Shown here piece by piece: positions 1 to 30,698 of a DNA stretch of 30,698 bases (position 1 is its first letter; each line of letters starts with the position of its first letter). The stretch comes from a virus. Below the pieces are notes generated by a model that ran no database searches, was not told where the DNA came from, and worked only from the letters and a program-made list of their open reading frames with translations. The DNA lies in IMG/VR virus record IMGVR_UViG_3300044700_000206, positions 1 to 30,698 of that record; one strand, written 5' to 3'. A program made the translations under genes and the position numbers.

Positions 1-934
1 CGAAGTCAAGATTCTGGAAGCTTTCCAGAATCCTGCTTTCATCGGCGATAAGCTCATGCCTGCTGAAGCTACCAAGCTCAACGGTCAGAAGGTTATCGGC
101 ATCAACCCCATTGGTGATGTGTCGCAGCGTAGGGCTCCGGGTGAACCTCATCCTAGGACCCAGTTCGGTGAGCGTTGGATTCAAACTCCAGAGACCCGTG
201 AAAACGCTCTGGCGATTGACATCCTCAAAGAAGCAGTCTTCTTTGACCTCACTGGTGACATTCTTCGGAATGCTGCTGCTTTGGGTGAGCAACTTGCTTA
301 TCGCAAGGAACTCGAAATCCTTGACACCATCATTGGTGTAAACAATCCTTTCAACTGGAAGGGAACTGCTTACAACACCTACGCCAACAACCTTGGCTAT
401 GACAACGCCCTGACCGGCAACGATCTCCAAGACTGGACCAACATCCAAGCAGCTTGGTTGAAGTTCAGTCGCTTTACTGATCCTGATACCACCAAGCGTA
501 TCTTGATCAACCCCAATGTGGTTTTGGTTTCTCCGGGTAAGCTGGCTACCGCCAACCTGATCCTGAATGCAACCATGACTCAGCGTCGTACTGGTGCAGG
601 AGCTACCACTCCTCAGACGACCAGTAATCCGCTGAATGTGTCTGACACCAACAGCAACCCCTACTCGGGAATGTTTGATGTCCTCACCAGTCCGTTGCTT
701 GAGCAACAACTCTACGCACAGCTGACTAACTACGACACTGCCACCTCCACTTGGTTCATGATGGAGAAGGGTAAGAGCTTCAAGTATATGCAGAACTATC
801 CTCTGCAAGTGCAGCAAGCTTCTGCTCAATCCTACAATATGCTGGATCGTGGGATTGTCAGCACCTACTTTGCTCATGAGAGGGGTATCGCTTCTGTGTG
901 GTCACCATGGCACACGATGAAGTGTTCGGCCTAA
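1..934 (+). CDS. Major capsid protein, 5' end outside window
   Basis: The open frame runs from base 2 at the left edge to the stop at 934 (about 310 residues visible), so the start lies upstream; the ATG at 56 is internal. The product would be the main shell protein of the procapsid. Visible features are a run on NPAFIGDKLMP, long amphipathic stretches (ILKEAVFFDLTGDILR, ALGEQLAYRKELEILDTIIG) like the spine helix of HK97-fold capsid proteins, and a C-terminal half rich in Asn, Gln and Tyr. Position is the strongest argument: it stands directly before a strong terminator and then small head, neck, tail tube and tape measure genes, the usual phage order. The family call is inference from character and synteny. 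Another abundant head protein is possible but less likely. Confidence 0.75.
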   Translation, partial: EVKILEAFQNPAFIGDKLMPAEATKLNGQKVIGINPIGDVSQRRAPGEPHPRTQFGERWIQTPETRENALAIDILKEAVFFDLTGDILRNAAALGEQLAYRKELEILDTIIGVNNPFNWKGTAYNTYANNLGYDNALTGNDLQDWTNIQAAWLKFSRFTDPDTTKRILINPNVVLVSPGKLATANLILNATMTQRRTGAGATTPQTTSNPLNVSDTNSNPYSGMFDVLTSPLLEQQLYAQLTNYDTATSTWFMMEKGKSFKYMQNYPLQVQQASAQSYNMLDRGIVSTYFAHERGIASVWSPWHTMKCSA

Positions 935-957
935 TCCTAGCAGACTAGGTTTCAATT

Positions 958-993
958 AGCCCCATCCATCAAACAGGTGGGTGGGGCTTTTTT
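958..993 (+). terminator. Rho-independent terminator after the capsid gene
   Basis: A 13-bp stem (958-970 with 976-988, two G-U pairs) closes a 5-nt loop (AAACA) and is followed by six T (988-993). It lies 24 nt after the capsid stop codon. It should end or reduce the capsid transcript, so that capsid protein is made in excess over the downstream neck and tail proteins. Confidence 0.93.
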
Positions 994-1008
994 CATAAGG
1001 AGAGAATG

Positions 1009-1435: not shown

Positions 1436-1764
1436 TGTCTGTAAAGTATGCAGTAATCAATGCAAGTGCTTCTGGCGATAACACAGTAGTAGCTGCTGTA
1501 GCTGGAAAGAAGATTCGTGTTGTAGGGTATAGCACAGCTGCTGCTGGTACGGTTACTGTTACTTGGAAGTCTGGAGCTTCGACTTCAATCAGCGGTCCTA
1601 TGCCGATGGTTGTTGCTGGATCTGGACAGGGTGTAATGGGAGCCGGTACTTACATGGCAGAACATGGAGTAATGGAAACTGGTGTAGGTCAAGCACTGGT
1701 TTTGAATCTTGGAGCAGCGGTAGCGGTTGGTGGTCATCTGGTTTACCGAGAGGTACAAGTTTAG
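1435..1764 (+). CDS. Beta-sandwich head decoration-like protein, 109 aa
   Basis: The protein is Gly, Ala and Val rich with alternating hydrophobic residues through its whole length, and the motif pattern VINASASGDNTVV, KKIRVVGY, GTVTVTWKSG, ALVLNL, VAVGGHLVYREV. This pattern is familiar from small all-beta virion proteins coded just after the capsid gene in many environmental phages, where a decoration or head-fibre role is assumed. It has no Cys or Trp-rich cluster and no signal peptide. It starts in TAATG overlap with the previous gene and its stop TAG overlaps the GTG start of the next, so it is translationally coupled on both sides. The structural class is a fair inference; the exact place on the virion is unknown. 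Confidence 0.65.
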   Translation: MSVKYAVINASASGDNTVVAAVAGKKIRVVGYSTAAAGTVTVTWKSGASTSISGPMPMVVAGSGQGVMGAGTYMAEHGVMETGVGQALVLNLGAAVAVGGHLVYREVQV

Positions 1765-2219
1765 TGTCTATAGGTAGCAGTGCTGCTGTATTCCTCAGTA
1801 GTTTGGTAGGAGGTACTTCTCCTACCGAACCTGTTAATCTACGCCCTATACTTACCCAGCTAGGTAGAGAAGCCTCTGTACACCTTAGGGCTCAGTTAAG
1901 CAGACCCTGTAATGGGAAAAAGAAAAACCACTCGCTTCCGGGAGAGTATCCTAAATCCGAAACAGGGAATCTCCGAAGTAGCGTAGGGTTTAAAGTATCT
2001 GGTAAAGATAAAGTCTTTATTGGGTACAAGCATCAGGGCAACCGCTCTATGGGCTTGAAAAAAGGGAAGAAGGCTCGCTCTACTTCCTATGCAGATAAGC
2101 TTCAAGAGAAAGGTCGTCTGGGACCTATTGATGCCCTTAACGACATCAAATCAACGGTTGAACAGAAGTTCAACATACGCTTAAGGTTTACTCCTAGTAT
2201 CAAATGGGTGCCTAACTAA
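1764..2219 (+). CDS. HK97 gp10-like tail completion/neck protein
   Basis: The open frame extends back to 1563 but there overlaps the preceding gene in full. GTG 1764, in TAGTG overlap with that gene's stop and 10 nt after GAGAGG, is the likely start and gives 151 residues. An N-terminal helix (LTQLGREASVHLRAQL) is followed by a loop with SLPGEYPKSETGNLRSSVGF, which closely follows the P-G-x-P...TGNLRxSI signature of HK97 gp10-like proteins. A basic stretch (MGLKKGKKARS) and a C-terminal helix-strand part come after. Members sit at the head-tail joint or stabilise the tail end. Position between the head and tail tube genes agrees. An unusual feature is the GTG start. Confidence 0.75.
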   Translation: MSIGSSAAVFLSSLVGGTSPTEPVNLRPILTQLGREASVHLRAQLSRPCNGKKKNHSLPGEYPKSETGNLRSSVGFKVSGKDKVFIGYKHQGNRSMGLKKGKKARSTSYADKLQEKGRLGPIDALNDIKSTVEQKFNIRLRFTPSIKWVPN

Positions 2220-2221
2220 TA

Positions 2222-2572
2222 ATGTTAGATCTTACAGAAGACAGTATTCTGTTTGATAACCTGTCCACAGTGACTTACACGGACCCTAATGGAACTGTGT
2301 ACACTGTGGATAATGTCAAAGTCTATCCTGCTGCCAATGTTTCAGCGGAAATATCTGATACTAATGTACGCTCTGTATCTACCAAGTTTTGTATGTGGTC
2401 CAACTCCATAAGTGTTCCTCCTCAAGTAAATGGAAGACTTGTGATTGTATCTGGACCAATGAATCTGGGCGATATATTTAACCGTAGTTTTCGCATACTA
2501 GCTATTGAAGAGGCTACTTTTCAATCCCGCTGGATTATTACTGCAATCATAGATGCTGGAGGAACGCTATAA
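2222..2572 (+). CDS. Probable head-tail connector (neck) protein, 116 aa
   Basis: A small, mostly beta protein (TVTYTDPNGTVYTVDNVKVYP, RSFRILAIEEATFQSRWIITAIID) starting 2 nt after the preceding stop. Its stop overlaps the start of the tail terminator-like gene (TAATG). The C-terminal half, in which a G-D-I-F motif leads to strands ending in a small Ala/Gly tail, resembles head-closure or stopper proteins in style, but no family signature is certain. The call rests on synteny: neck genes normally come in this order before the tail terminator and tail tube. Confidence 0.55.
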   Translation: MLDLTEDSILFDNLSTVTYTDPNGTVYTVDNVKVYPAANVSAEISDTNVRSVSTKFCMWSNSISVPPQVNGRLVIVSGPMNLGDIFNRSFRILAIEEATFQSRWIITAIIDAGGTL

Positions 2573-3027
2573 TGGCTGGCATCTACGACGCAATACTCAC
2601 AGGGGTAAAAGCTCGCATAGATGGCGTAGGTACTTTACCCTCTACTGTTATTCGTAAGCAATTAGCGTTTCTTGAAGGGGATGATCTTCCTTCCATTATT
2701 ATTGCTCCAATGGAACCTGAAGCAATTGCTATGGAATACTTCGGAAGAATATGTTATTCTTACAGTGTAGGGGTTGCTTTAGTAGAAACAGGCAACCGGC
2801 AGTACACCACAGGACTTACTACCTCTCTGGATCTTAGAGAGACTTTAAGGAACACGCTGGTTCAGTTGTTTTTACCAAATGTTCCAGAAGTGTGGGATGT
2901 GGATGTTACTCCGGGATTACCTATCTACTTTCCTTCAGATGGACCTGCGACTAACTACCAGACCAGTACATTCAATGTCCGTTACAAGACTGATGAAGCC
3001 CGACCGGGTTACCCTACTCTACCTTAA
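2572..3027 (+). CDS. Tail terminator-like protein, 151 aa
   Basis: Starts at ATG 2572 after GGAGG, in 1-nt overlap with the gene before. The N-terminal helix (IYDAILTGVKARIDGVG) leads to strands with LPSIIIAP, followed by YSYSVGVALVET, a helix LDLRETLRNTLVQLFL and a last strand STFNVRYKT. This helix-strand-strand-helix-strand order is that of lambda gpU-type and DUF3168-type tail terminators, which cap the tail tube and bind the head. The next gene is a tail tube protein, the usual neighbour. It could also be another small neck protein, since no diagnostic residue is visible. Confidence 0.6.
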   Translation: MAGIYDAILTGVKARIDGVGTLPSTVIRKQLAFLEGDDLPSIIIAPMEPEAIAMEYFGRICYSYSVGVALVETGNRQYTTGLTTSLDLRETLRNTLVQLFLPNVPEVWDVDVTPGLPIYFPSDGPATNYQTSTFNVRYKTDEARPGYPTLP

Positions 3028-3039
3028 GGAGTTTGCACA

Positions 3040-3465
3040 ATGGCAGTAGTCACAGGAAAATACGGGTATGCTGCAATACAGTTTCCCGGCGCAGCAGAAC
3101 CTACTTCATTTGATATTACGGATTGGACAGCCACTCCCACTATGGATTCCGTAGATACTACGAATACCAATGCAATGACTCCATTAGGTACTTGGGAAGA
3201 TACTGTACCTAGCATCTACAAGTCCGACTTTACCTTTAGTGGACCTGTAACTTACAATATGCTTGATAGTGGGTTTGGACCTAATTTTTCTGGTATCTAT
3301 TGTAGAGTAGAATTAGGTTACATTGTGTATGTAGCAGGGGCTCCTGTTTATCGTGTAGTACATAATGATCAAGTATTGATTACCAGTATGAAACAAACTG
3401 TAAATGTCAAAGGTTTTTGGCAGTATGAAATGACTGGTACTAGCAGTGCTTACACCAACCTCTAA
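3040..3465 (+). CDS. Tail tube protein, short paralogue, 141 aa
   Basis: A strong AAGGAG lies 8 nt before ATG 3040. The protein begins GKYGYAAIQF and has FDITDWTATPTMDSVDTTNTNAM, an N-terminal pattern typical of tail tube subunits (strand, loop and T-x-x-x-D-x-T-N), and closes with ITSMKQTVNVKGFWQYEMTGT. Tube subunits stack into the hollow tail through which DNA passes. The next gene encodes a longer protein with the same N- and C-terminal motifs, so the two are tandem paralogues. This shorter one lacks the C-terminal proline-rich extension. The family call is an inference from pattern and position, with good support from the duplication and from the chaperone and tape measure downstream. Confidence 0.72.
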   Translation: MAVVTGKYGYAAIQFPGAAEPTSFDITDWTATPTMDSVDTTNTNAMTPLGTWEDTVPSIYKSDFTFSGPVTYNMLDSGFGPNFSGIYCRVELGYIVYVAGAPVYRVVHNDQVLITSMKQTVNVKGFWQYEMTGTSSAYTNL

Positions 3466-3478
3466 GGAGATATAACCC

Positions 3479-4183
3479 ATGTCCTATTCAGTATCTTTTT
3501 CAGGAAGACAGGGTGCCATTACTTATGTAATTGGTGCAACTACTATTGATCTTCCTATGACAGAATGGACCGCTACTAGAAGTACTGATGCCATTGATGG
3601 TACTAACTTTACTTCTAGGTATCCTAATGAAGGGGGACCTTTCAATCAATTTGGTAATGGAGAATTGTTTGAAACAGGTACAGCTGGAAGTGTAGCTTCT
3701 CAAGAAGTAGCACCCGGTTACAATAAAATTAGTATTGAAGCTAGGGGTTATCCTTCTTGCGAAACAGGAGTACCGGGAGGTTCCTCTGTAGTACCGCTTC
3801 CTGTTATTGGTCAACGAGTAGAATTTAGATTGTATCCTGTTGTAGGAAACGATGATATAGGTACTGTTGAAGAACAATACTATTGTCGTATCAACAGCGT
3901 TAATTACAGTCTGAATGTTCGTGGCGTATTGGAATACACGATTACAGCTGCTACCGCTGGACCTCCCCCATCGTTTGCTGCTGCTTCACAACAAGCTATT
4001 GGTGCAGAACCTTTGACTTACTTGGAGCGAATGAAAAAGCGTAAACAAGAAGTCGTTAAAGAATGGAAGCCTGAACCTTCCCGAGTGGATAGGTTTGCTC
4101 CTCCTAAAACTCCAAAACCTGATCCAGTTCCCCCTGCTCCAGTACCTCCTACACCACCTGAACCTGAACCAGAGGCTCCCTAA
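3479..4183 (+). CDS. Tail tube protein, long paralogue with Pro-rich tail, 234 aa
   Basis: AAGGAG lies 9 nt before ATG 3479. Residues 1-165 repeat the plan of the preceding gene product: GRQGAITYVIGATTIDLPMTEWTATRSTDAIDGTN near the start and INSVNYSLNVRGVLEYTITAAT at about 138-160, with a longer middle part (about 60-105). After it come a charged stretch (YLERMKKRKQEVVKEW) and a tail almost wholly of Pro, Glu and Val (about 205-234). The proline-rich end would be unstructured and could project from the tube. The stop overlaps the next start (TAATG). The two tube proteins may form mixed or successive rings, or one may cap the tube. Confidence 0.72.
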   Translation: MSYSVSFSGRQGAITYVIGATTIDLPMTEWTATRSTDAIDGTNFTSRYPNEGGPFNQFGNGELFETGTAGSVASQEVAPGYNKISIEARGYPSCETGVPGGSSVVPLPVIGQRVEFRLYPVVGNDDIGTVEEQYYCRINSVNYSLNVRGVLEYTITAATAGPPPSFAAASQQAIGAEPLTYLERMKKRKQEVVKEWKPEPSRVDRFAPPKTPKPDPVPPAPVPPTPPEPEPEAP

Positions 4184-4665
4184 TGTCTCTTTCTAAAGCT
4201 AGTGTACAATCCCAGATTAGCTGGACTCAGCAATCTTCAACCTCAGGCTTTGTCAAGACTCAACAGGGTCCTGACAAAGTTCTGAAGTCTACCCCAGTAT
4301 CCATAGCATCTCTTAATGAGATCTATGTATACAAAGGAACGCTAGCAATTTCTGGTACATTGACTATTGACCTACGAGCAGTAACCAACCTGCTCAATGA
4401 ATCAGTAGTGTTTACTGGTGTACAGAAACTGTTCTTGTCTACTTCAGCGGCTAACATTACAATGACTCCCGGAGCTTCCAACGGTCTGGTGTGGTTCTAT
4501 ACTGGAACTGCACCTGTACTGACTGTTAAAGCTGGTGGAGGCATTACATTGGATGATGGTGGGTTGACTGTGGTAGATGCTACTCACAAGACTCTTACCA
4601 TTACCAACTTGTCTTCTACGCTGACCACTTACATTGAGCTTGCAATTATAGGAACAAGTCTCTAA
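4183..4665 (+). CDS. Beta-rich virion protein between tail tube and chaperone genes, 160 aa
   Basis: The protein is rich in Ser, Thr, Leu and Ile with repeated short strands (GTLTIDLRAVTNLLNESVVF, VQKLFLSTSAANITMTPG, KTLTITN, TTYIELAIIG). It resembles a widespread but unnamed small beta protein of environmental phages in which a central T-L-x-L-x-A-V-T-N-L-x-x-E-S-V motif precedes a segment on LFLS...NITMTPG. It is translationally coupled to both neighbours by TAATG overlaps. A structural role on the tail is inferred from its place; no enzymatic motif is present. Confidence 0.6.
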   Translation: MSLSKASVQSQISWTQQSSTSGFVKTQQGPDKVLKSTPVSIASLNEIYVYKGTLAISGTLTIDLRAVTNLLNESVVFTGVQKLFLSTSAANITMTPGASNGLVWFYTGTAPVLTVKAGGGITLDDGGLTVVDATHKTLTITNLSSTLTTYIELAIIGTSL

Positions 4666-6053: not shown

Positions 6054-8481
6054 TGTTGAAGTTAATGCCACTAGCATGACACCAAGCGCACCTGTAGGAG
6101 GAGCCGACGCTCTTGCTCCTCTTACAGCTGCATTGGATAAACTTCATACAGCTTTATCCTCTGTAGAAACAACTATTAAAGCTTTAGACATTGGTAAAGC
6201 GTTTACGGTAACGCTGAGTAATGAACTAAGTGCATTTGTCAGTCGTTTTGATACTATCCTCACCCAGTTTACAAATAAGTTTAATGATAAGCTAGATAAG
6301 TTATTATCCAACATTACGGTTACGGCTAAAGGAGGAAAAGGAAAAGGAGGGTTGGTACAAGACGACGATGAAGAAGAAAATCCTATTATTCGTGCAGCCA
6401 AAAAAAGGCGTAAAAATCTTCAGTTTGAAAGGGATGTTCGTGCGGAGCTAGAAACAAGAGCGCATTCTAAGGGTACTTTACACGAACCATGGAAGCCATT
6501 TAATCGTTCTTCTATACCAAATAAACTATACAGTAATATTCCTAAAGTTCCGATGTCTATGCGGTCGGAAGATGAGCAATTTAAAGCATACATAGCTACT
6601 CAACAAAAAAGAGGAAGGTTTAAAGATAGAGCGGTTGCTGAAGGATTCATGCCCGGTCCATTGTCTAAAATGGATAAGCAAGTTAAGACTGTAGAAGAAG
6701 AAGTAAAAGATCTTTTAGATAGAGCTACTCGGCGCAAAGAAGTAGAGAGCATATACAATAAACAAGCTGAAAGTATGGGATTACCTACAAAAGGAGGTAA
6801 ATCCGACATACAAATAGAACGAGAAACAAACTTAAAAGAAGCTGCTAAAGAAAAAATAGTCAGAGAAAAACAAGAAAAAGAAGCACAGGAGCGTAAACGA
6901 ACTAGCCTTATTGTTCGACAAACAGACTATGGTGTAAAAGCAGATAAAGTAGCAGGATCGTTTTTAGATAATTTTAAAAAATCTATGGAAGCCTCTAAAA
7001 AGGCTATGACAATACCGTCTCCTTATAATAGAAACTATCTTAAAAACTTAAGCAGTGAAAAAGATTATAGAAATTTTGTAACGCCTACAGGTTCCTATTC
7101 AGGTACTTTTGCAGGTGAGCCTAAAAAGTTTACCGCAGTACCTTCTCCTTACAGTACATTTTTCCGTAGAGGAATGTCTAGTGACAAGGAATGGAAAAAC
7201 TTTGTAACACCTACAGGGTCGTTTGGAGGACTACCTCCTTCTACTCCTAAAGTTACTAATGGAACTGGTGGGTTTGACTGGAAGAAGTTGCTTGGAGCAG
7301 CTGGATTAGGTTTTGCATTCACAGGTGGAGCAGGTGTTGCTGCTGCTGCGATTGTCAAGTTATTGCCAAAGGTTGTTAAAGCGTTTGAACCTGTCATTGA
7401 CTTGGGTAATGCGTTGGTTGATTCATTGGATCCGTTAGCAGAGACAATAAATTCTGCTCTTACACCATTCAGAGACTTGGCAAACCAGCTAAAACGATTC
7501 TCTGTCCTTGGAGGATTTGGTGCATCCTTCAACATGAATCGCATCAATGCCCAGTTTGAATCGAATCTGAATGATCTGATGGGTAGTATGCTAGAGACGG
7601 TCAGTAGTATATTCTCCAACCCATTAGCTGGCATTATGAATGCTGCAAGTATGATTGGTAAGTTTGTTGACATGGTTGATCCAGCGGCCATGGCATTGTT
7701 TCAACAGACCATGAGAGATACTTTTGCTGTAATCGGTACTGCACTCAGACCTGCTATGTTTGAATTATCCAAGATGTTGCGATCCTTTGCAGATCATTTG
7801 CACCCTGTATTGCAAGGAGCAATGCCTAGGATTATGTCTGGGCTTGAGTCTCTTGCAACGGCATTTGAAAAGAACTTACCTCTCATTACTTTGATGATTG
7901 AAAAGTTTGTTGGTGACTTTACTAAACAAATTGACAAAAGCGGATCGTTGTTTGAAAACGCTTTAGATCCTAAAAAACTAATGAAAGATTTTGAAAACTA
8001 TCAAAAAGGTATTAAAGTAAAAGAAGAAACAGGTGGGTTTGAAAAAGCATTTGAAAGATTTGTTTATAGAACTGATAGAGAATTTGAATTAAAAAAAGGC
8101 TTTCAAAGTACTGCTAATCTAATATTAAAATTAGCCGGTAAAGAAGGTGGCATTGAAAAGAACAAAGATTTTCTTACCAGCTTTTTAAAGACTATTATTG
8201 ATAAAACCAAACCAGCTAGCACTGTAGGGTTAGCTAGAGTTACGGATGCTTCTTATGGTGGAGTCGCTGAAGTAGGTAGAGAAGCTGTTCGTAGAGCATT
8301 TGAAGGTAGTAGGCTTCAAGATCTTACCCGAAAAAATAATAGGGAAGATATCGAGACAGCGACTTATAATGCTTTTATAAAAGCACTGGAACAATGGAGT
8401 TCTGGAAGTAAAATATATGCAGGCCCAGAACCTGAAGGAATCCATTCAGGTACTCAATTTTATCCTAAACCTGTACGCTAA
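6037..8481 (+). CDS. Tail tape measure protein, 814 aa
   Basis: By far the longest plus-strand gene, directly after the chaperone pair, which is the defining position of the tape measure that sets tail length and is ejected with the DNA. The first 80 residues are Ala/Thr/Leu helices without Pro. Then come a Gly/Lys loop (GGKGKGG), a long highly charged helical region (about 110-310), a repeat region with two 42-residue units (326-367 and 368-409), and a strongly hydrophobic stretch of LGAAGLGFAFTGGAGVAAAAIV type at about 417-440 that may insert into a membrane. The rest is amphipathic helices. The start at 6037 overlaps the preceding gene by 17 nt. No muralytic or peptidase motif was seen. 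It ends 4 nt inside the convergent minus-strand gene. Confidence 0.88.
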   Translation: MSSGTNVEVNATSMTPSAPVGGADALAPLTAALDKLHTALSSVETTIKALDIGKAFTVTLSNELSAFVSRFDTILTQFTNKFNDKLDKLLSNITVTAKGGKGKGGLVQDDDEEENPIIRAAKKRRKNLQFERDVRAELETRAHSKGTLHEPWKPFNRSSIPNKLYSNIPKVPMSMRSEDEQFKAYIATQQKRGRFKDRAVAEGFMPGPLSKMDKQVKTVEEEVKDLLDRATRRKEVESIYNKQAESMGLPTKGGKSDIQIERETNLKEAAKEKIVREKQEKEAQERKRTSLIVRQTDYGVKADKVAGSFLDNFKKSMEASKKAMTIPSPYNRNYLKNLSSEKDYRNFVTPTGSYSGTFAGEPKKFTAVPSPYSTFFRRGMSSDKEWKNFVTPTGSFGGLPPSTPKVTNGTGGFDWKKLLGAAGLGFAFTGGAGVAAAAIVKLLPKVVKAFEPVIDLGNALVDSLDPLAETINSALTPFRDLANQLKRFSVLGGFGASFNMNRINAQFESNLNDLMGSMLETVSSIFSNPLAGIMNAASMIGKFVDMVDPAAMALFQQTMRDTFAVIGTALRPAMFELSKMLRSFADHLHPVLQGAMPRIMSGLESLATAFEKNLPLITLMIEKFVGDFTKQIDKSGSLFENALDPKKLMKDFENYQKGIKVKEETGGFEKAFERFVYRTDREFELKKGFQSTANLILKLAGKEGGIEKNKDFLTSFLKTIIDKTKPASTVGLARVTDASYGGVAEVGREAVRRAFEGSRLQDLTRKNNREDIETATYNAFIKALEQWSSGSKIYAGPEPEGIHSGTQFYPKPVR
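7012..7263 (+). repeat. Two tandem 42-codon repeats inside the tape measure gene
   Basis: Unit 1 (7012-7137) and unit 2 (7138-7263) encode segments that both begin (I/V)PSPY and both contain S-S-(E/D)-K-(D/E)-(Y/W)-(R/K)-NFVTPTGS at the same distance. The period is exactly 126 nt. The DNA has diverged at many third positions while the protein motif is kept, so this is an old duplication held by selection. A weaker third copy of the short motif (MRSEDEQFKAYI) lies at about 6559-6594, out of register. Confidence 0.85.
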
Positions 8482-24238: not shown

Positions 24239-24476
24239 ACTGATCACACTCCTGACATAAATGAACTGTAGTATCACTTACAGTCGCTGACCGAATGCAC
24301 AGCTCTTTCTTCAGCGTACAGATATGTACCCAACAATGTTCACATCTAGGATCCAGTCTGTTTACAACTGGTCCCAGATTAAAACATTTCTCTGGGAATA
24401 AATTGGGTACTCTATTTAGGGATTCCTCCTCTAAACTCTCGCCATAATTTCGAAGCTCTTGGTAATGTTTGTCCAT
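24225..24476 (-). CDS. Small zinc-ribbon-like protein, 83 aa
   Basis: ATG 24476 is chosen because AAAGG lies 8 nt upstream; the open frame runs further back but inside the dCTP deaminase gene, which this start still overlaps by 65 nt. The C-terminal half has Cys pairs CEHC (about 50-53) and CQEC (about 75-78) with single Cys at about 58 and 65, a spacing suited to a zinc ribbon. The N-terminal part is charged and helical. A nucleic-acid-binding or regulatory role is possible from the zinc motif and its place in the replication block. The unusually long overlap may indicate that a non-standard start is used. Confidence 0.5.
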   Translation of the reverse strand: MDKHYQELRNYGESLEEESLNRVPNLFPEKCFNLGPVVNRLDPRCEHCWVHICTLKKELCIRSATVSDTTVHLCQECDQYEPV

Positions 24477-24948
24477 TGTACTTACCTTTGTACTTTGTGG
24501 ATGGATATCCATGAACCGCTTGAAACCTAACTTGAGCAATTTGAACATTAGGATACACCATAACAGGTTGAACTACACTTAGTTCCAAAGTAAAAGTTCC
24601 TTTGAATCCTAAGTCTCCGTATCCAGCAGTAGCATGAACATTGATACCAAGTCTACCTACGCTGGATCGTCCATCAATAATGGGTACATACTGATTGGAA
24701 CCAATGGTTTCTACTGTGGCTCCAAGATACAAGATTCCCGGTTTAAGTAGAAAACCTTTTTCGTTCATCTTGATGCTAAAAGTTTTCATCTTCTTTTTCA
24801 TATCCAACTCACCCGGACAATAGCATACAAGTTCAGGACTAAGCCTGACATTGTAAGAATTGGGATTGAGTTGTTTGACATTGAAAGGATCAATGTCAAT
24901 GTCACCATGTTCAATTGCCCATTCGATTTTATAACCTGTCAGAATCAT
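24412..24948 (-). CDS. dcd: dCTP deaminase/dUTPase-family enzyme, 178 aa
   Basis: Converts dCTP to dUTP (or also dUTP to dUMP in bifunctional forms), feeding dTMP synthesis. Family motifs are NPNSYNVRLSPEL (about 29-40), IDGRSSVGRLGINVHATAGYGDLGFKG (about 91-117), TLEL with Glu122 at the place of the catalytic Glu of E. coli Dcd (Glu138), and the C-terminal YNGQTLPRAS (about 157-166). Length is normal. ATG 24948 is preferred to GTG 24954, because AGGAG (24954-24958) would be adjacent to the latter. The leader is directly preceded by a T7 tract and a long structured RNA (see 24959-25196), so its expression may be attenuated or start from a processed RNA. Confidence 0.85.
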   Translation of the reverse strand: MILTGYKIEWAIEHGDIDIDPFNVKQLNPNSYNVRLSPELVCYCPGELDMKKKMKTFSIKMNEKGFLLKPGILYLGATVETIGSNQYVPIIDGRSSVGRLGINVHATAGYGDLGFKGTFTLELSVVQPVMVYPNVQIAQVRFQAVHGYPSTKYKGKYNGQTLPRASKLWREFRGGIPK

Positions 24949-24958
24949 TTTCACTCCT

Positions 24959-24977
24959 AAAAAAATTTACGCTGGGG
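24959..24977 (-). terminator. Possible terminator/attenuator: 3' strand of an 11-bp helix plus T7
   Basis: On the minus strand CCCCAGCGTAA (24977-24967) is followed by A and seven T (24965-24959). Its partner TTACGCTGGGG is at 25063-25053, so the helix encloses a long structured domain instead of a small loop. The T tract is 1 nt before the dcd ribosome binding site. This would suit either the end of a non-coding RNA or an attenuator for dcd. As a simple hairpin terminator it is atypical. Confidence 0.5.
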
Positions 24978-25063
24978 AACCCCTGCTTGACGCACTTCGC
25001 CTTCAACAGAGGTATATGGAGTGACAGGAAAGTGCTAAAACATCCCCTCCTACCCCAGCGTAA
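24967..25063 (-). ncRNA. Structured RNA domain closed by a perfect 11-bp helix (third domain)
   Basis: Closing helix 25063-25053 with 24977-24967 (TTACGCTGGGG and CCCCAGCGTAA), an inner 6-bp helix GCACTT/AAGTGC (25035-25030 with 24997-24992), and a 32-nt apical region containing CACTCC. GGAG at 25050-25047, between the two helices, can pair with CTCC in the apical region (25021-25018), and CCTG (25028-25025) with CAGG (24986-24983), both forming pseudoknots. It lies 5 nt after the second domain and directly before a T7 tract and the dcd start. No known riboswitch consensus was recognised. Confidence 0.7.
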
Positions 25064-25068
25064 TAAGA

Positions 25069-25124
25069 TACCTACTCAGTAGTTCACGCTTGTTGATCCT
25101 AAAGGATTTAAGCCTGAGTAGGTA
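25069..25124 (-). ncRNA. Stacked hairpin RNA domain (second domain)
   Basis: Perfect 11-bp helix (TACCTACTCAG at 25069-25079 on the plus text, CTGAGTAGGTA at 25114-25124), continued by a 4-bp helix (25088-25091 with 25110-25113) and a 4-bp ATCC/GGAT hairpin (25096-25099 with 25104-25107, loop TAAA, plus a G-U pair). The asymmetric internal loop has 8 nt on one side. It is 2 nt from the tRNA-like domain and 5 nt from the next domain. No T tract follows, so it is not a terminator. Confidence 0.7.
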
Positions 25125-25126
25125 AA

Positions 25127-25196
25127 TGGAGCAAAGAGGGTGCCATCCTCTATTTCCCCTATGCGCAGGGGTGTCCTAGTGTTAGACGATTGCTCC
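25127..25196 (-). ncRNA. tRNA-like cloverleaf with altered elbow (first domain)
   Basis: On the minus strand: 7-bp acceptor (GGAGCAA 25196-25190 with TTGCTCC 25134-25128), TC linker, 4-bp D-stem GTCT/GGAC with a 7-nt loop, A, an anticodon-type stem CCCCT/AGGGG with a 6-nt loop (GCGCAT), a 4-nt variable region, and a 5-bp/7-nt T-arm (AGAGG, ATGGCAC, CCTCT) directly abutting the acceptor. Discriminator A at 25127; CCA is not encoded. The D-arm text ATCGTCTAAcacTAGGACA matches bacterial tRNA-Glu/Gln except for the loop. GG at 18-19 is AC, and T-loop 55-56 is TG, so both elbow pairs can still form. The anticodon loop is 1 nt short, so amino acid identity cannot be given and translation use is doubtful. 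Confidence 0.7.
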
Positions 25197-25204
25197 AACA
25201 AATT

Positions 25205-25210
25205 ATTATA
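25205..25210 (-). promoter_or_regulatory. TATAAT -10 box before the structured RNA
   Basis: TATAAT on the minus strand, 1 nt after the stop codon of the upstream gene. With the usual 6-8 nt to the start, transcription would begin at or next to G25196, the first base of the cloverleaf. No good TTGACA-like -35 box or extended -10 (TGn) lies at the proper distance, so the promoter could be weak, activator-dependent or coincidental. Confidence 0.5.
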
Positions 25211-25211
25211 C

Positions 25212-25730
25212 CTAGTAAAGATCCTCACCATCTCCCGGAGTAGGAACAGTATCCCGCTTGGGACGACTAGGCGTAGGAGCAGCCTGACGGCTAGGAGCCT
25301 GAGTCTGTTTCCTCTCACGGAAGCTACCTACTACCCATCCTTTCTTCTCGTCCTTTGTAATGAACGATACCTTCTTAAGGTCACGGAGTCTGTCCATGGC
25401 TTCTTTCTGGAGTTCAAAGTTGTTGATCTCTTTTGAGATAACACTAAGATACACCTCTCCATCATTTTCAGTAATGAGTTCAAGGATCTTCTCCATGGTA
25501 GGTTCAATGTCTTCTTTGTTTACCTTCTTGCTTAGACGCTTTGGTCCAGCAGCATAGTATTCTTCGACATGAATCTTGTCACCCATCTTGAGTTCACGAA
25601 TGAATCCAAAGGCTTCTTTGTATTCAATCTCAAGATCATCTACCAACAGCTTGGCCAATCCAATACCGGATACAGCTTTGCTGTCACGAAGGGCTTGCAT
25701 AACAATCTTCTCGGCTTGCTTCAGACTCAC
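25212..25730 (-). CDS. Tandem winged-helix-like protein with SSB-like acidic tail, 172 aa
   Basis: GTG 25730 is the start (GGAGG 7 nt before; GTGA overlap with the primase-helicase stop). Two similar helical segments (about 3-60 and 72-140) each end in strands (DKIHVEEYYAA, KKVSFITKDEKKGWVV), the pattern of winged-helix domains. A Pro/Arg/Lys/Gln-rich linker (about 145-165) follows, and the chain ends in GDGEDLY. An acidic tail ending in a hydrophobic or aromatic residue is typical of single-stranded DNA-binding proteins that recruit partners (bacterial SSB, T7 gp2.5). No OB-fold is evident. It is likely a DNA-binding accessory of the primase-helicase next to it. Confidence 0.55.
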   Translation of the reverse strand: MSLKQAEKIVMQALRDSKAVSGIGLAKLLVDDLEIEYKEAFGFIRELKMGDKIHVEEYYAAGPKRLSKKVNKEDIEPTMEKILELITENDGEVYLSVISKEINNFELQKEAMDRLRDLKKVSFITKDEKKGWVVGSFRERKQTQAPSRQAAPTPSRPKRDTVPTPGDGEDLY

Positions 25731-27688
25731 AGTATATCCTCCAGTTTAGGTTTCTTGTTTCGTACCAATGCTATGTGCCAACCATCAATCTCTTTGATCA
25801 TCTTGACTTGATTCGTTTCCCTAAGGGACGCTACAGCCAAGTTGAATTGAGTCAGCGGTAAACGCTCACCCACAATATCAGTCTTTAGTTCTTCCAGTGC
25901 TAAACCTCCTCCTTCCTGTTCAAGATACTCTTTAACAATCTGTTGAGCATTCTCAATGGATTGCTTCCGGTCCTTGTCAGACATAGGTTCAAACCAACCA
26001 TCAATGGAGATCCTACAGAATGATTCTAACACCCTGTCACGCTTTCCAATAACGGTTACACCTGAAGCTTCTACTACTCGCTCTGCTTCATCCTGTTCCA
26101 GATCTTTAATCCGGAATACAAGATTGTCCCTGCGAGCTTTGAAGTTGCTCTTGGTGATCTTCATTTCAGATGCACCATTCGCTGCGGTAATCATCAGCGT
26201 AGATCGGGACAGGTTAGGTAAACCTACTGACCCAAGCACACCTTTGACAGACCCATCATTAGCTTTATTGGTATGGGCAATACCAACAAAAGCGGTTGAC
26301 AACTGTAACTCATTACAGGCTTGAAGGATAGGTTCTAGTGTTGCTCTAGATCCTTTATTGGAATTCTCATCTCCACTAAGGTAAGAGGTGAGAGGATCCA
26401 AGATAACCAGCAACGGCTTACGACTACCCAGCAGCAATCGGATACCCTCTGGATCATCCAGATCAATGTTCCCTTCACGCAGAACAAAGATCCTTTCCAG
26501 TGCTGCACCTTCAGCTACCAGTCTAGGAAGGAGTTCTGTTTCAACACCTTCTTCTCTGGTAACCCAGATGACATTCCCTTTGGGAATCCTGTTTTTGTAA
26601 TCCTTTACAGGATCCAAACCAAACGCTGGTCTACCCTGAGACACAGCAGCAGCCAGATGTCCACACAGTGAAGACTTACCTGAGCCACCTGTACCAGCCA
26701 TGATACATAGACTGGAGGACAGGATGACTCCCGGTACTAAATACTCCCTACCCCTGAGAACAATATCAGGGTGGGCAAGTGATTCAAAGCTGGCACCATT
26801 AGGGAGCTTGAACCCAGTAGTCTTGGGATCCATCTCAAATGGTTTAGCCTTATCACATAGTGACTGTAATGTAGATGCCTTATTCAGGTCAAGCCAGTCT
26901 ACAATGTCTTCACCATTAGATCGTTTAGGAAACAGATCCAAGACTTTGATACTTGCAGCACCACAAGTTTCAAGATCGAGTGCTACATCTGTAGCGTGTT
27001 TCCTTCCCGGATCATCAGCGTCAGGTAGAATAACCACATGACGATTGTTGAAGTGTTCTTTAAACCTGATACTAATCTTTGCCCAGCGACCAGCACCACC
27101 CGGATTGGTAGTAGCTGTGTAGCCTGCTTTGATCAGTGCCTCAGCAGCTTTCTCCCCCTCTACTACAAAGATAGTAGAGGTGGTGTTCTTAAGGATACCC
27201 TGAAGGTTATAGGGTGGAATGTCTGTGCCCGGAAGCACACGCATTACCCAGCGTCCTGTGTCATCCTTTGTTGATTGGAAGAATCCTTTACGCTCTCCGT
27301 CAAAGGAATCTCTACGCTGGACTCGAAGGAGTTCTGTTCCTTGTTCGTCTGTGTAGGAGTAGGTTGCTGTAACCGGCCAAGAGAATACATCATGATCTCT
27401 AAGTTCAACCGGTCTACGGTCCTCTGAAGACAGCTCTGGAATATCTCTGCGATGAACAATGCCACCATCAGAGTCAAAGCCACAGCCAATGTTACGGACC
27501 ATGGAACGGGCAGAACATCCATGACTGAAACAATGCAGTAACAATTTCCCACTATCAGACACTGTGATGCAAAGACTAGGTACAGTATCTCCATGAACGG
27601 GACAACACGCCAGATAGTTATTGTCATCCTTTCTTGTCCAGTGCTTGAGTCTAGATGAGAGTAGATCAATCTGTTGTGTGGCATTCAC
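25727..27688 (-). CDS. Primase-helicase, CHC2-like zinc finger, TOPRIM and RepA-like ATPase, 653 aa
   Basis: Unwinds the fork and lays down RNA primers. N-terminal zinc motif CCPVHGD...HCFSHGC (Cys29, His32, Cys53, Cys58); TOPRIM part with VVEGEKAA (Glu178) and LPDADDPGR (Asp223, Asp225); then a hexameric RepA/DnaB-type ATPase with Walker A GTGGSGKSS (about 332-340), TREE (about 377-380) and Walker B LLVILDP (Asp431). The order and length fit T7 gp4-like or phage bifunctional proteins. The start is GTG 27688, in GTGA overlap with the gene before, with GAGGTGA just upstream. The last about 90 residues look like a winged-helix extension (LALEELKTDIVGERLPLTQFNLAVASLRE). Confidence 0.92.
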   Translation of the reverse strand: MNATQQIDLLSSRLKHWTRKDDNNYLACCPVHGDTVPSLCITVSDSGKLLLHCFSHGCSARSMVRNIGCGFDSDGGIVHRRDIPELSSEDRRPVELRDHDVFSWPVTATYSYTDEQGTELLRVQRRDSFDGERKGFFQSTKDDTGRWVMRVLPGTDIPPYNLQGILKNTTSTIFVVEGEKAAEALIKAGYTATTNPGGAGRWAKISIRFKEHFNNRHVVILPDADDPGRKHATDVALDLETCGAASIKVLDLFPKRSNGEDIVDWLDLNKASTLQSLCDKAKPFEMDPKTTGFKLPNGASFESLAHPDIVLRGREYLVPGVILSSSLCIMAGTGGSGKSSLCGHLAAAVSQGRPAFGLDPVKDYKNRIPKGNVIWVTREEGVETELLPRLVAEGAALERIFVLREGNIDLDDPEGIRLLLGSRKPLLVILDPLTSYLSGDENSNKGSRATLEPILQACNELQLSTAFVGIAHTNKANDGSVKGVLGSVGLPNLSRSTLMITAANGASEMKITKSNFKARRDNLVFRIKDLEQDEAERVVEASGVTVIGKRDRVLESFCRISIDGWFEPMSDKDRKQSIENAQQIVKEYLEQEGGGLALEELKTDIVGERLPLTQFNLAVASLRETNQVKMIKEIDGWHIALVRNKKPKLEDIL

Positions 27689-30574: not shown

Positions 30575-30698
30575 TGGGTTCGCTCCTTTTCATATTTTCC
30601 ATCATGTTTAGCATCTTTGCACTGGTTGCAATTGATCCTAATTGTTTTAAACAACCTGTCAGTATGTACAATGTAACACTGACCCAAACAAACATTGG
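30571..30698 (-). CDS. Partial small zinc-ribbon-like protein, start beyond the right edge
   Basis: The open frame enters from the right edge and ends at TGA 30571-30573, in ATGA overlap with the DUF3310 gene, which favours this frame. Forty-one residues are visible. They contain CLGQC and, 18 residues on, CNQC, followed by a charged Lys-rich tail (KDAKHDGKYEKERTQ). Two Cys pairs suggest a zinc ribbon, like the small Cys proteins near the polymerase. A different open frame starting at an ATG near 30696 has no such coupling and was not chosen. Confidence 0.5.
   Translation of the reverse strand, partial: NVCLGQCYIVHTDRLFKTIRINCNQCKDAKHDGKYEKERTQ

Follow-up and report, generated by a model that had tools for sequence, protein, structure and literature searches.

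A three-domain structured RNA in a phage replication operon and its 3′ junction, which resembles the cyanobacterial RNA CyVA-1

The locus and its fold

In the window, i.e., the whole stretch of 30,698 bases of an IMG/VR virus record analyzed here, a gap on the minus strand separates the end of a small-protein gene (25212) from the start of a dCTP deaminase gene (24948). What does this gap, located in a replication operon, encode? It is taken up by three helix-closed domains; the TATAAT box, the 8-nt gap, the three domains and the T7 tract described in a first-pass annotation are all present in the sequence. The features of the locus are as follows.

25727–27688, minus strand: upstream primase/helicase gene, which served as an unbiased probe in the search for relatives
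25212–25730, minus strand: upstream gene for an unnamed small protein, with 22–25% amino acid identity at the same place in relatives
25205–25210, minus strand: TATAAT, a possible −10 box without a recognizable −35 (sequence; promoter scan silent)
25128–25196, minus strand: domain 1, a cloverleaf derived from a tRNA (sequence, fold, the tRNA-Glu of L005, helices of the relatives)
25069–25124, minus strand: domain 2, an 11-bp stem with an apical hairpin and an inner helix of 3–4 bp (fold z −3.9; alignment)
24968–25062, minus strand: domain 3, a three-way junction of type A (P1, H1, P2 and a predicted L1–L2 pseudoknot; covariance model, covariation, Rfam CyVA-1)
25030–25035, minus strand: putative pseudoknot 5′ strand GCACUU in loop L1, which pairs with AAGUGC
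24992–24997, minus strand: putative pseudoknot 3′ strand AAGUGC within GAAGGCGAAGUGCGUCA in loop L2 (covariation)
24959–24965, minus strand: T7 tract downstream of the domain 3 P1 helix, a possible intrinsic termination point (sequence; T-tract enrichment)
24412–24948, minus strand: downstream gene for dCTP deaminase, ATG at 24948 (Pfam PF22769, E 1e-32; PHROG 1663)

The arrangement is compact, with 8 nt between TATAAT and domain 1, 3 nt between domains 1 and 2, and about 5–6 nt between domains 2 and 3. The proposed promoter-like and terminator-like signals stand only in part: TATAAT (25210–25205) is absent from the promoter-scan output, and the T7 tract begins 2 nt past the domain 3 stem, lies directly against the AGGAG of the following gene and overlaps its ribosome-binding region. 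Folding of the minus strand from 25196 to 24968 gave a minimum free energy of −98.3 kcal/mol, compared with −76.0 ± 4.9 kcal/mol for shuffled sequences (z −4.53), and none of 200 shuffles was as good. In the window, neither Rfam at curated thresholds nor ARAGORN at default settings reported a match; at a permissive Rfam threshold, CyVA-1 on domain 3 was the sole match. Since the helices recur in relatives with compensatory changes, they exceed what chance would produce, and the three-part structured RNA recognized on inspection is genuine.

Conservation of the RNA block and exchange of its domains

A DNA pattern built from shared bases retrieved five IMG/VR phages with identical spacing, and a search with the primase alignment added the relatives L009, L010 and L013. 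Scans of IMG/VR with single proteins (deaminase, upstream protein, polymerase) found no relatives. When the RNA or domain 3 was compared by BLASTN with the phages of INPHARED and the plasmids of PLSDB, only chance matches came back. A homologue of the small upstream gene precedes the RNA in all relatives whose contigs reach far enough. The RNA block of L004 is 91% identical to that of the window over 231 nt, and the 5′ boundary of the shared block lies no more than a base from domain 1, its 3′ boundary at domain 3. This bears out the earlier proposal of a single noncoding RNA unit, with a length of about 230 nt found here. The identity of the RNA block is 88–96%, versus about 50% at the amino acid level for the neighbouring proteins (compared with the window, identity is 54–58% for the primases of the relatives and about 50% for their polymerases); in the most distant relative, L013, it is 80% over 244 nt. 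At the right end of the window (30589–30698, minus strand), the DNA of a small ORF (MFVWVSVTLYILTGCLKQLG...) is 96% identical to positions 774–883 (oriented) of L005; with neighbouring proteins 45–60% identical, this match points to recent exchange between these phages. As the identity to L005 reaches 96% in this second, protein-coding segment too, part of the 91–96% identity of the block could also be due to recent exchange.

The genes that follow the RNA bear on an alternative raised in the first-pass annotation, a leader controlling the dCTP deaminase gene. A cis-acting control element of the next gene, such as a riboswitch or an attenuator, would draw on the position of the T7 tract against the AGGAG, where termination or folding would affect the deaminase gene, and riboswitches include compact junctions with kissing loops. 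However, in L003, L004, L005, L009, L010 and L013 the dCTP deaminase gene lies elsewhere and other genes follow the RNA; in other phages the genes after domain 3 are mutually unrelated, and in L117 the next gene is on the opposite strand. With no fixed downstream gene, a switch for dCTP deaminase is unlikely, and a cis-acting leader in general appears improbable.

Domain 1 displays a 7-bp acceptor helix followed by D-like, anticodon-like and T-like arms. At the same site and with the same flanks, L005 carries a tRNA-Glu(UUC) gene (ARAGORN; Rfam 40.3 bits) that can be aligned with domain 1, and L003 and L009 carry an odd tRNA without a readable anticodon. In contrast to tRNA (RF00005), domain 1 of the window shows no D-loop GG, no T-loop UUCRA (UUCRANY) motif, no readable anticodon and no 7-nt anticodon loop with U33, and ARAGORN reports it only under the relaxed setting -ps80. 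Judged from sequence, domain 1 is a tRNA derivative that probably lost tRNA function and kept the cloverleaf. The missing hallmarks, together with the tRNA-Glu of L005 and the odd tRNA of L003 and L009 at the same place, would also fit a decaying tRNA island kept by hitch-hiking, in which domains 1 and 2 are functionless. We consider such decay very improbable: the window, L004, L006 and L013 have the same D loop, AACACUA, and the same T loop, AUGGCAC, and the helices are retained across the relatives with compensatory changes. As the altered loops are identical even though the proteins differ by about half, domain 1 is a conserved derivative rather than a product of random decay. The length of the RNA island is variable, with extra tRNA-like or hairpin units ahead of domain 1 in L009 (about 6300–6380) and L013 (about 8340–8440).

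Domain 2 is a stem that has not been described previously, with a conserved bulge of 7–8 nt, GUGAACU(A), on its 3′ side. Across seven phages, 98 of 98 helix cells are paired and several of the 14 pairs are doubly changed, with pairs that differ in L003 and L009. MAFFT misregistered this stem and the P1 helix of the type B elements described below, so the counts were taken from hand-set registers.

The domains also occur in other combinations. L005 joins its tRNA-Glu to domains 2 and 3 of the window type, L003 has a domain 2 of a different kind, and L006 and L008 contain a further 110-nt domain between domains 2 and 3 that has a T arm of the tRNA type and a fold z-score of −4.2.

L006 about 6780–6890 and L008 about 4180–4290, minus strand: extra cloverleaf-like domain, whose start is also present in L009 (6500–6552, contig end)

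These arrangements indicate that domains swap individually between phages. The extra domain of L006 and L008 contains AGUUCAC, complementary to the domain 2 bulge GUGAACU.

Architecture, distribution and kinship of domain 3

Domain 3 is closed by a helix of 11 bp by eye and 10–12 bp by fold. A second and a third pattern, after removal of chance matches, located it in 20 more IMG/VR records from a variety of phages (21 with the window), ranging from fragments of about 9 kb to 205 kb, with one copy per record, IMG/VR records often being fragments. Candidates L002 and L007, most of L089–L148 and all of L157–L174 were rejected as coding or chance matches with no pseudoknot or no model match. The 18 distinct sequences fall into two subtypes, 12 of type A and six of type B. 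The type A sequences align without gaps over 95 columns. Their H1 loop reads AUGUUUU, four variable bases and UU, next to a conserved UGUCA bulge, and their 17-nt P2 loop reads GAAGGCGAA, four bases and GUCA; in the predicted pseudoknot, the four variable bases and UU of L1 pair with AA and four variable bases of L2.

Four of the six pseudoknot pairs are doubly changed across the 12 type A sequences. Overall, 93.9% of type A cells are paired and 20 of 33 pairs, pseudoknot included, show double changes; the covariation score is 0.492, compared with 0.148 for shuffled and at most 0.111 for slid alignments. The inner H1 helix is invariant, and covariation gives no test there. Type B sequences are missing the outer H1 helix and have a P1 of 10–14 bp and a 9-bp P2 of different sequence, in which 52 of 54 cells are paired, versus a mean of 34 and a maximum of 40 with strands exchanged; all six pseudoknot pairs can form in every type B sequence. 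The helices of domain 3 and its predicted pseudoknot are thus supported by covariation, and the covarying pairs that the first-pass annotation had expected in homologous phages are found in domain 2 as well as in domain 3. Read on the minus strand, G–U pairs outnumber A–C (14 versus 6 in helices; 8 versus 1 in type B P2), as expected for an RNA of that strand.

The genomic surroundings of domain 3 vary widely. It is followed by a head-tail connector gene in L097 and L111, among capsid and connector genes, and by a nucleotidyltransferase-like gene (Pfam match below cut-off), on either strand, in L088 and L117. HNH endonuclease genes (Pfam PF01844) lie directly upstream in L093 and L109. Another PF01844 gene is found about 0.6–1 kb upstream of domain 3 in L114. 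This proximity in three phages may reflect chance or a link with mobility. In L091 (ORF 1443–3982) and L119 (RNA 918–1005, minus strand), a helicase-like ORF reads through the element in frame, giving the peptide GDVFPVSCHE. An additional coding segment has been inserted directly behind domain 3 in L119. Occurring beside such unrelated genes, domain 3 has no fixed neighbour.

Some of these observations could suggest that the element acts as DNA, as a single-stranded hairpin that serves in replication, packaging or recombination: it sits at gene boundaries, near HNH endonuclease genes in three phages and at a gene-rearrangement junction in L091 and L119, with a single copy per record. However, the excess of G–U over A–C pairs on the minus strand, an orientation that matches transcription in most loci and the kinship to CyVA-1, which was detected as RNA (PMC7002113), argue against it, and we regard a DNA site as the least probable of the readings.

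The Rfam CyVA-1 model (RF02965) scores domain 3 of the window at 22.3 bits (E 0.012; cut-off 41.4) and the phage elements at 22–32 bits (best 32.5), all below 41.4. Under the phage type A model, domain 3 of the window, itself part of the training set, scores 108.6 bits. Model R1, built solely from phage type A sequences, finds type B at 48–56 bits and six of eight cyanobacterial CyVA-1 loci at the exact place (E 4e-5 to 0.02), with one other weak match in 832 kb (E 0.92). Domain 3 and CyVA-1 share a P1-closed three-way junction with two hairpins, a first loop that bears GUUUU and a 17-nt second loop, GAAGG.GA....GUCA. In contrast to CyVA-1, the phage elements have an invariant AUGUUUU...UUUCCUGUCA segment, are phage-borne with one copy per record and, in type A, include the outer H1 helix with the UGUCA bulge; the 6-bp loop–loop pseudoknot is general in the phages, whereas it can form in only some CyVA-1 sequences (good in L154 and L156). 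We read this likeness as distant common descent or strong convergence; scores under the curated threshold place the phage RNA outside the CyVA-1 family. The earlier statement that no described RNA family has this arrangement has to be revised for domain 1, a tRNA derivative, and domain 3, a putative distant relative of CyVA-1.

CyVA-1 was detected as an expressed RNA in halite cyanobacteria (PMC7002113), and it is present in 12 of the 146 cyanobacterial genomes sampled here, some of which carry two close copies. The close pairs L175/L186, L181/L189, L183/L190 and L191/L192 are roughly 100 to 730 nt apart. In L149, L150 and L153, a conserved terminator-like hairpin, GUGGAG-UUUUUGUCGCUUC-CUCCAC-UUU, lies just 3′ of CyVA-1. 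Many such motifs reportedly stem from Weinberg et al. 2017. L092 weakly matched the CPEB3 ribozyme, but this match was discarded because of its wrong topology and its absence from the other elements. Other structured noncoding phage RNAs include GOLLD and ROOL, which are large, of unknown function and often near tRNAs (PMC12286853). The RNA of the window is also a structured noncoding phage RNA, but at about 230 nt, versus several hundred, and with different helices; the Rfam covariance models of GOLLD and ROOL gave no match.

A trans-acting RNA or a 3′-end module

The 3′ flank of domain 3 bears on the two leading explanations. TTTTT occurs within 14 nt after P1 in seven of 18 elements, compared with a background of 1.5%; the nominal p of 4e-9 is too small, as the copies are related. 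The T tract at P1 suggests that the 3′ side of domain 3 marks an RNA 3′ end. Many copies start within about 20 nt past the upstream stop codon, a position equally suited to a separate sRNA and to an element of a 3′-UTR or a terminator. Domain 3 might therefore be mainly a 3′-end module, i.e., a structured intrinsic terminator and exonuclease barrier for the upstream phage transcript, without a target in trans. In addition to the T tracts, such a role would be in line with the placement of the element right after the upstream stop codon in L093, L109, L114, L121 and L088 and with a P1 of 10–14 bp that is often G+C-rich. However, the T tract is missing in 11 of 18 copies, a separate strong hairpin terminator lies 3′ of domain 3 in the relatives L003–L008 (the window has T7 only), and in L097 and L111 domain 3 comes after a terminator; moreover, a terminator needs neither an invariant 17-nt loop nor a covarying pseudoknot. 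We judge the 3′-end role unlikely, and it is the main rival of the trans-acting RNA that we favour.

Our preferred explanation, to which we give somewhat better than even credence, is a modular phage noncoding-RNA cassette that would act as RNA, in trans, through the loops of domain 3; the in-frame position within a helicase-like ORF in L091 and L119 speaks against it. The RNA would be made from the minus strand as a separate transcript from about 25196 to 24960. It would consist of a 5′ unit that is a former tRNA cloverleaf, a middle unit that is a bulged stem and a 3′ unit that is a three-way junction locked by the pseudoknot, the last representing a putative phage branch akin to CyVA-1, the sRNA of cyanobacteria. 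Domain 3 would set the 3′ end, and its invariant AUGUUUU, UGUCA, GAAGG.GAA and G.CA may bind a protein or RNA that the hosts of many phages have in common. More tentatively, and at present doubtful, domain 3 might represent a class of regulatory RNAs spread across phages, one that imitates or takes the place of a host sRNA of the CyVA-1 type and addresses one host factor in very different bacteria; in the small phages of this clade, it would be part of an exchangeable cassette with a repurposed tRNA as its leader unit.

Starting from one odd intergenic gap, the analysis delimits an RNA class whose three-dimensional core can be put to the test; the class comprises 21 records in two subtypes and is marked by invariant bases in its loops and by a predicted pseudoknot with covarying pairs. 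Since the RNA is missing from the phage and plasmid collections searched, work on cultivated phages would miss this class. The kinship would bring phages into the CyVA-1 family, in this analysis otherwise just a bacterial sRNA of unknown function, and provide this family with the first signs of a loop–loop contact. The locus also shows the conversion of a tRNA gene into a conserved unit that is no longer a tRNA, and the exchange of RNA domains as cassettes among phages.
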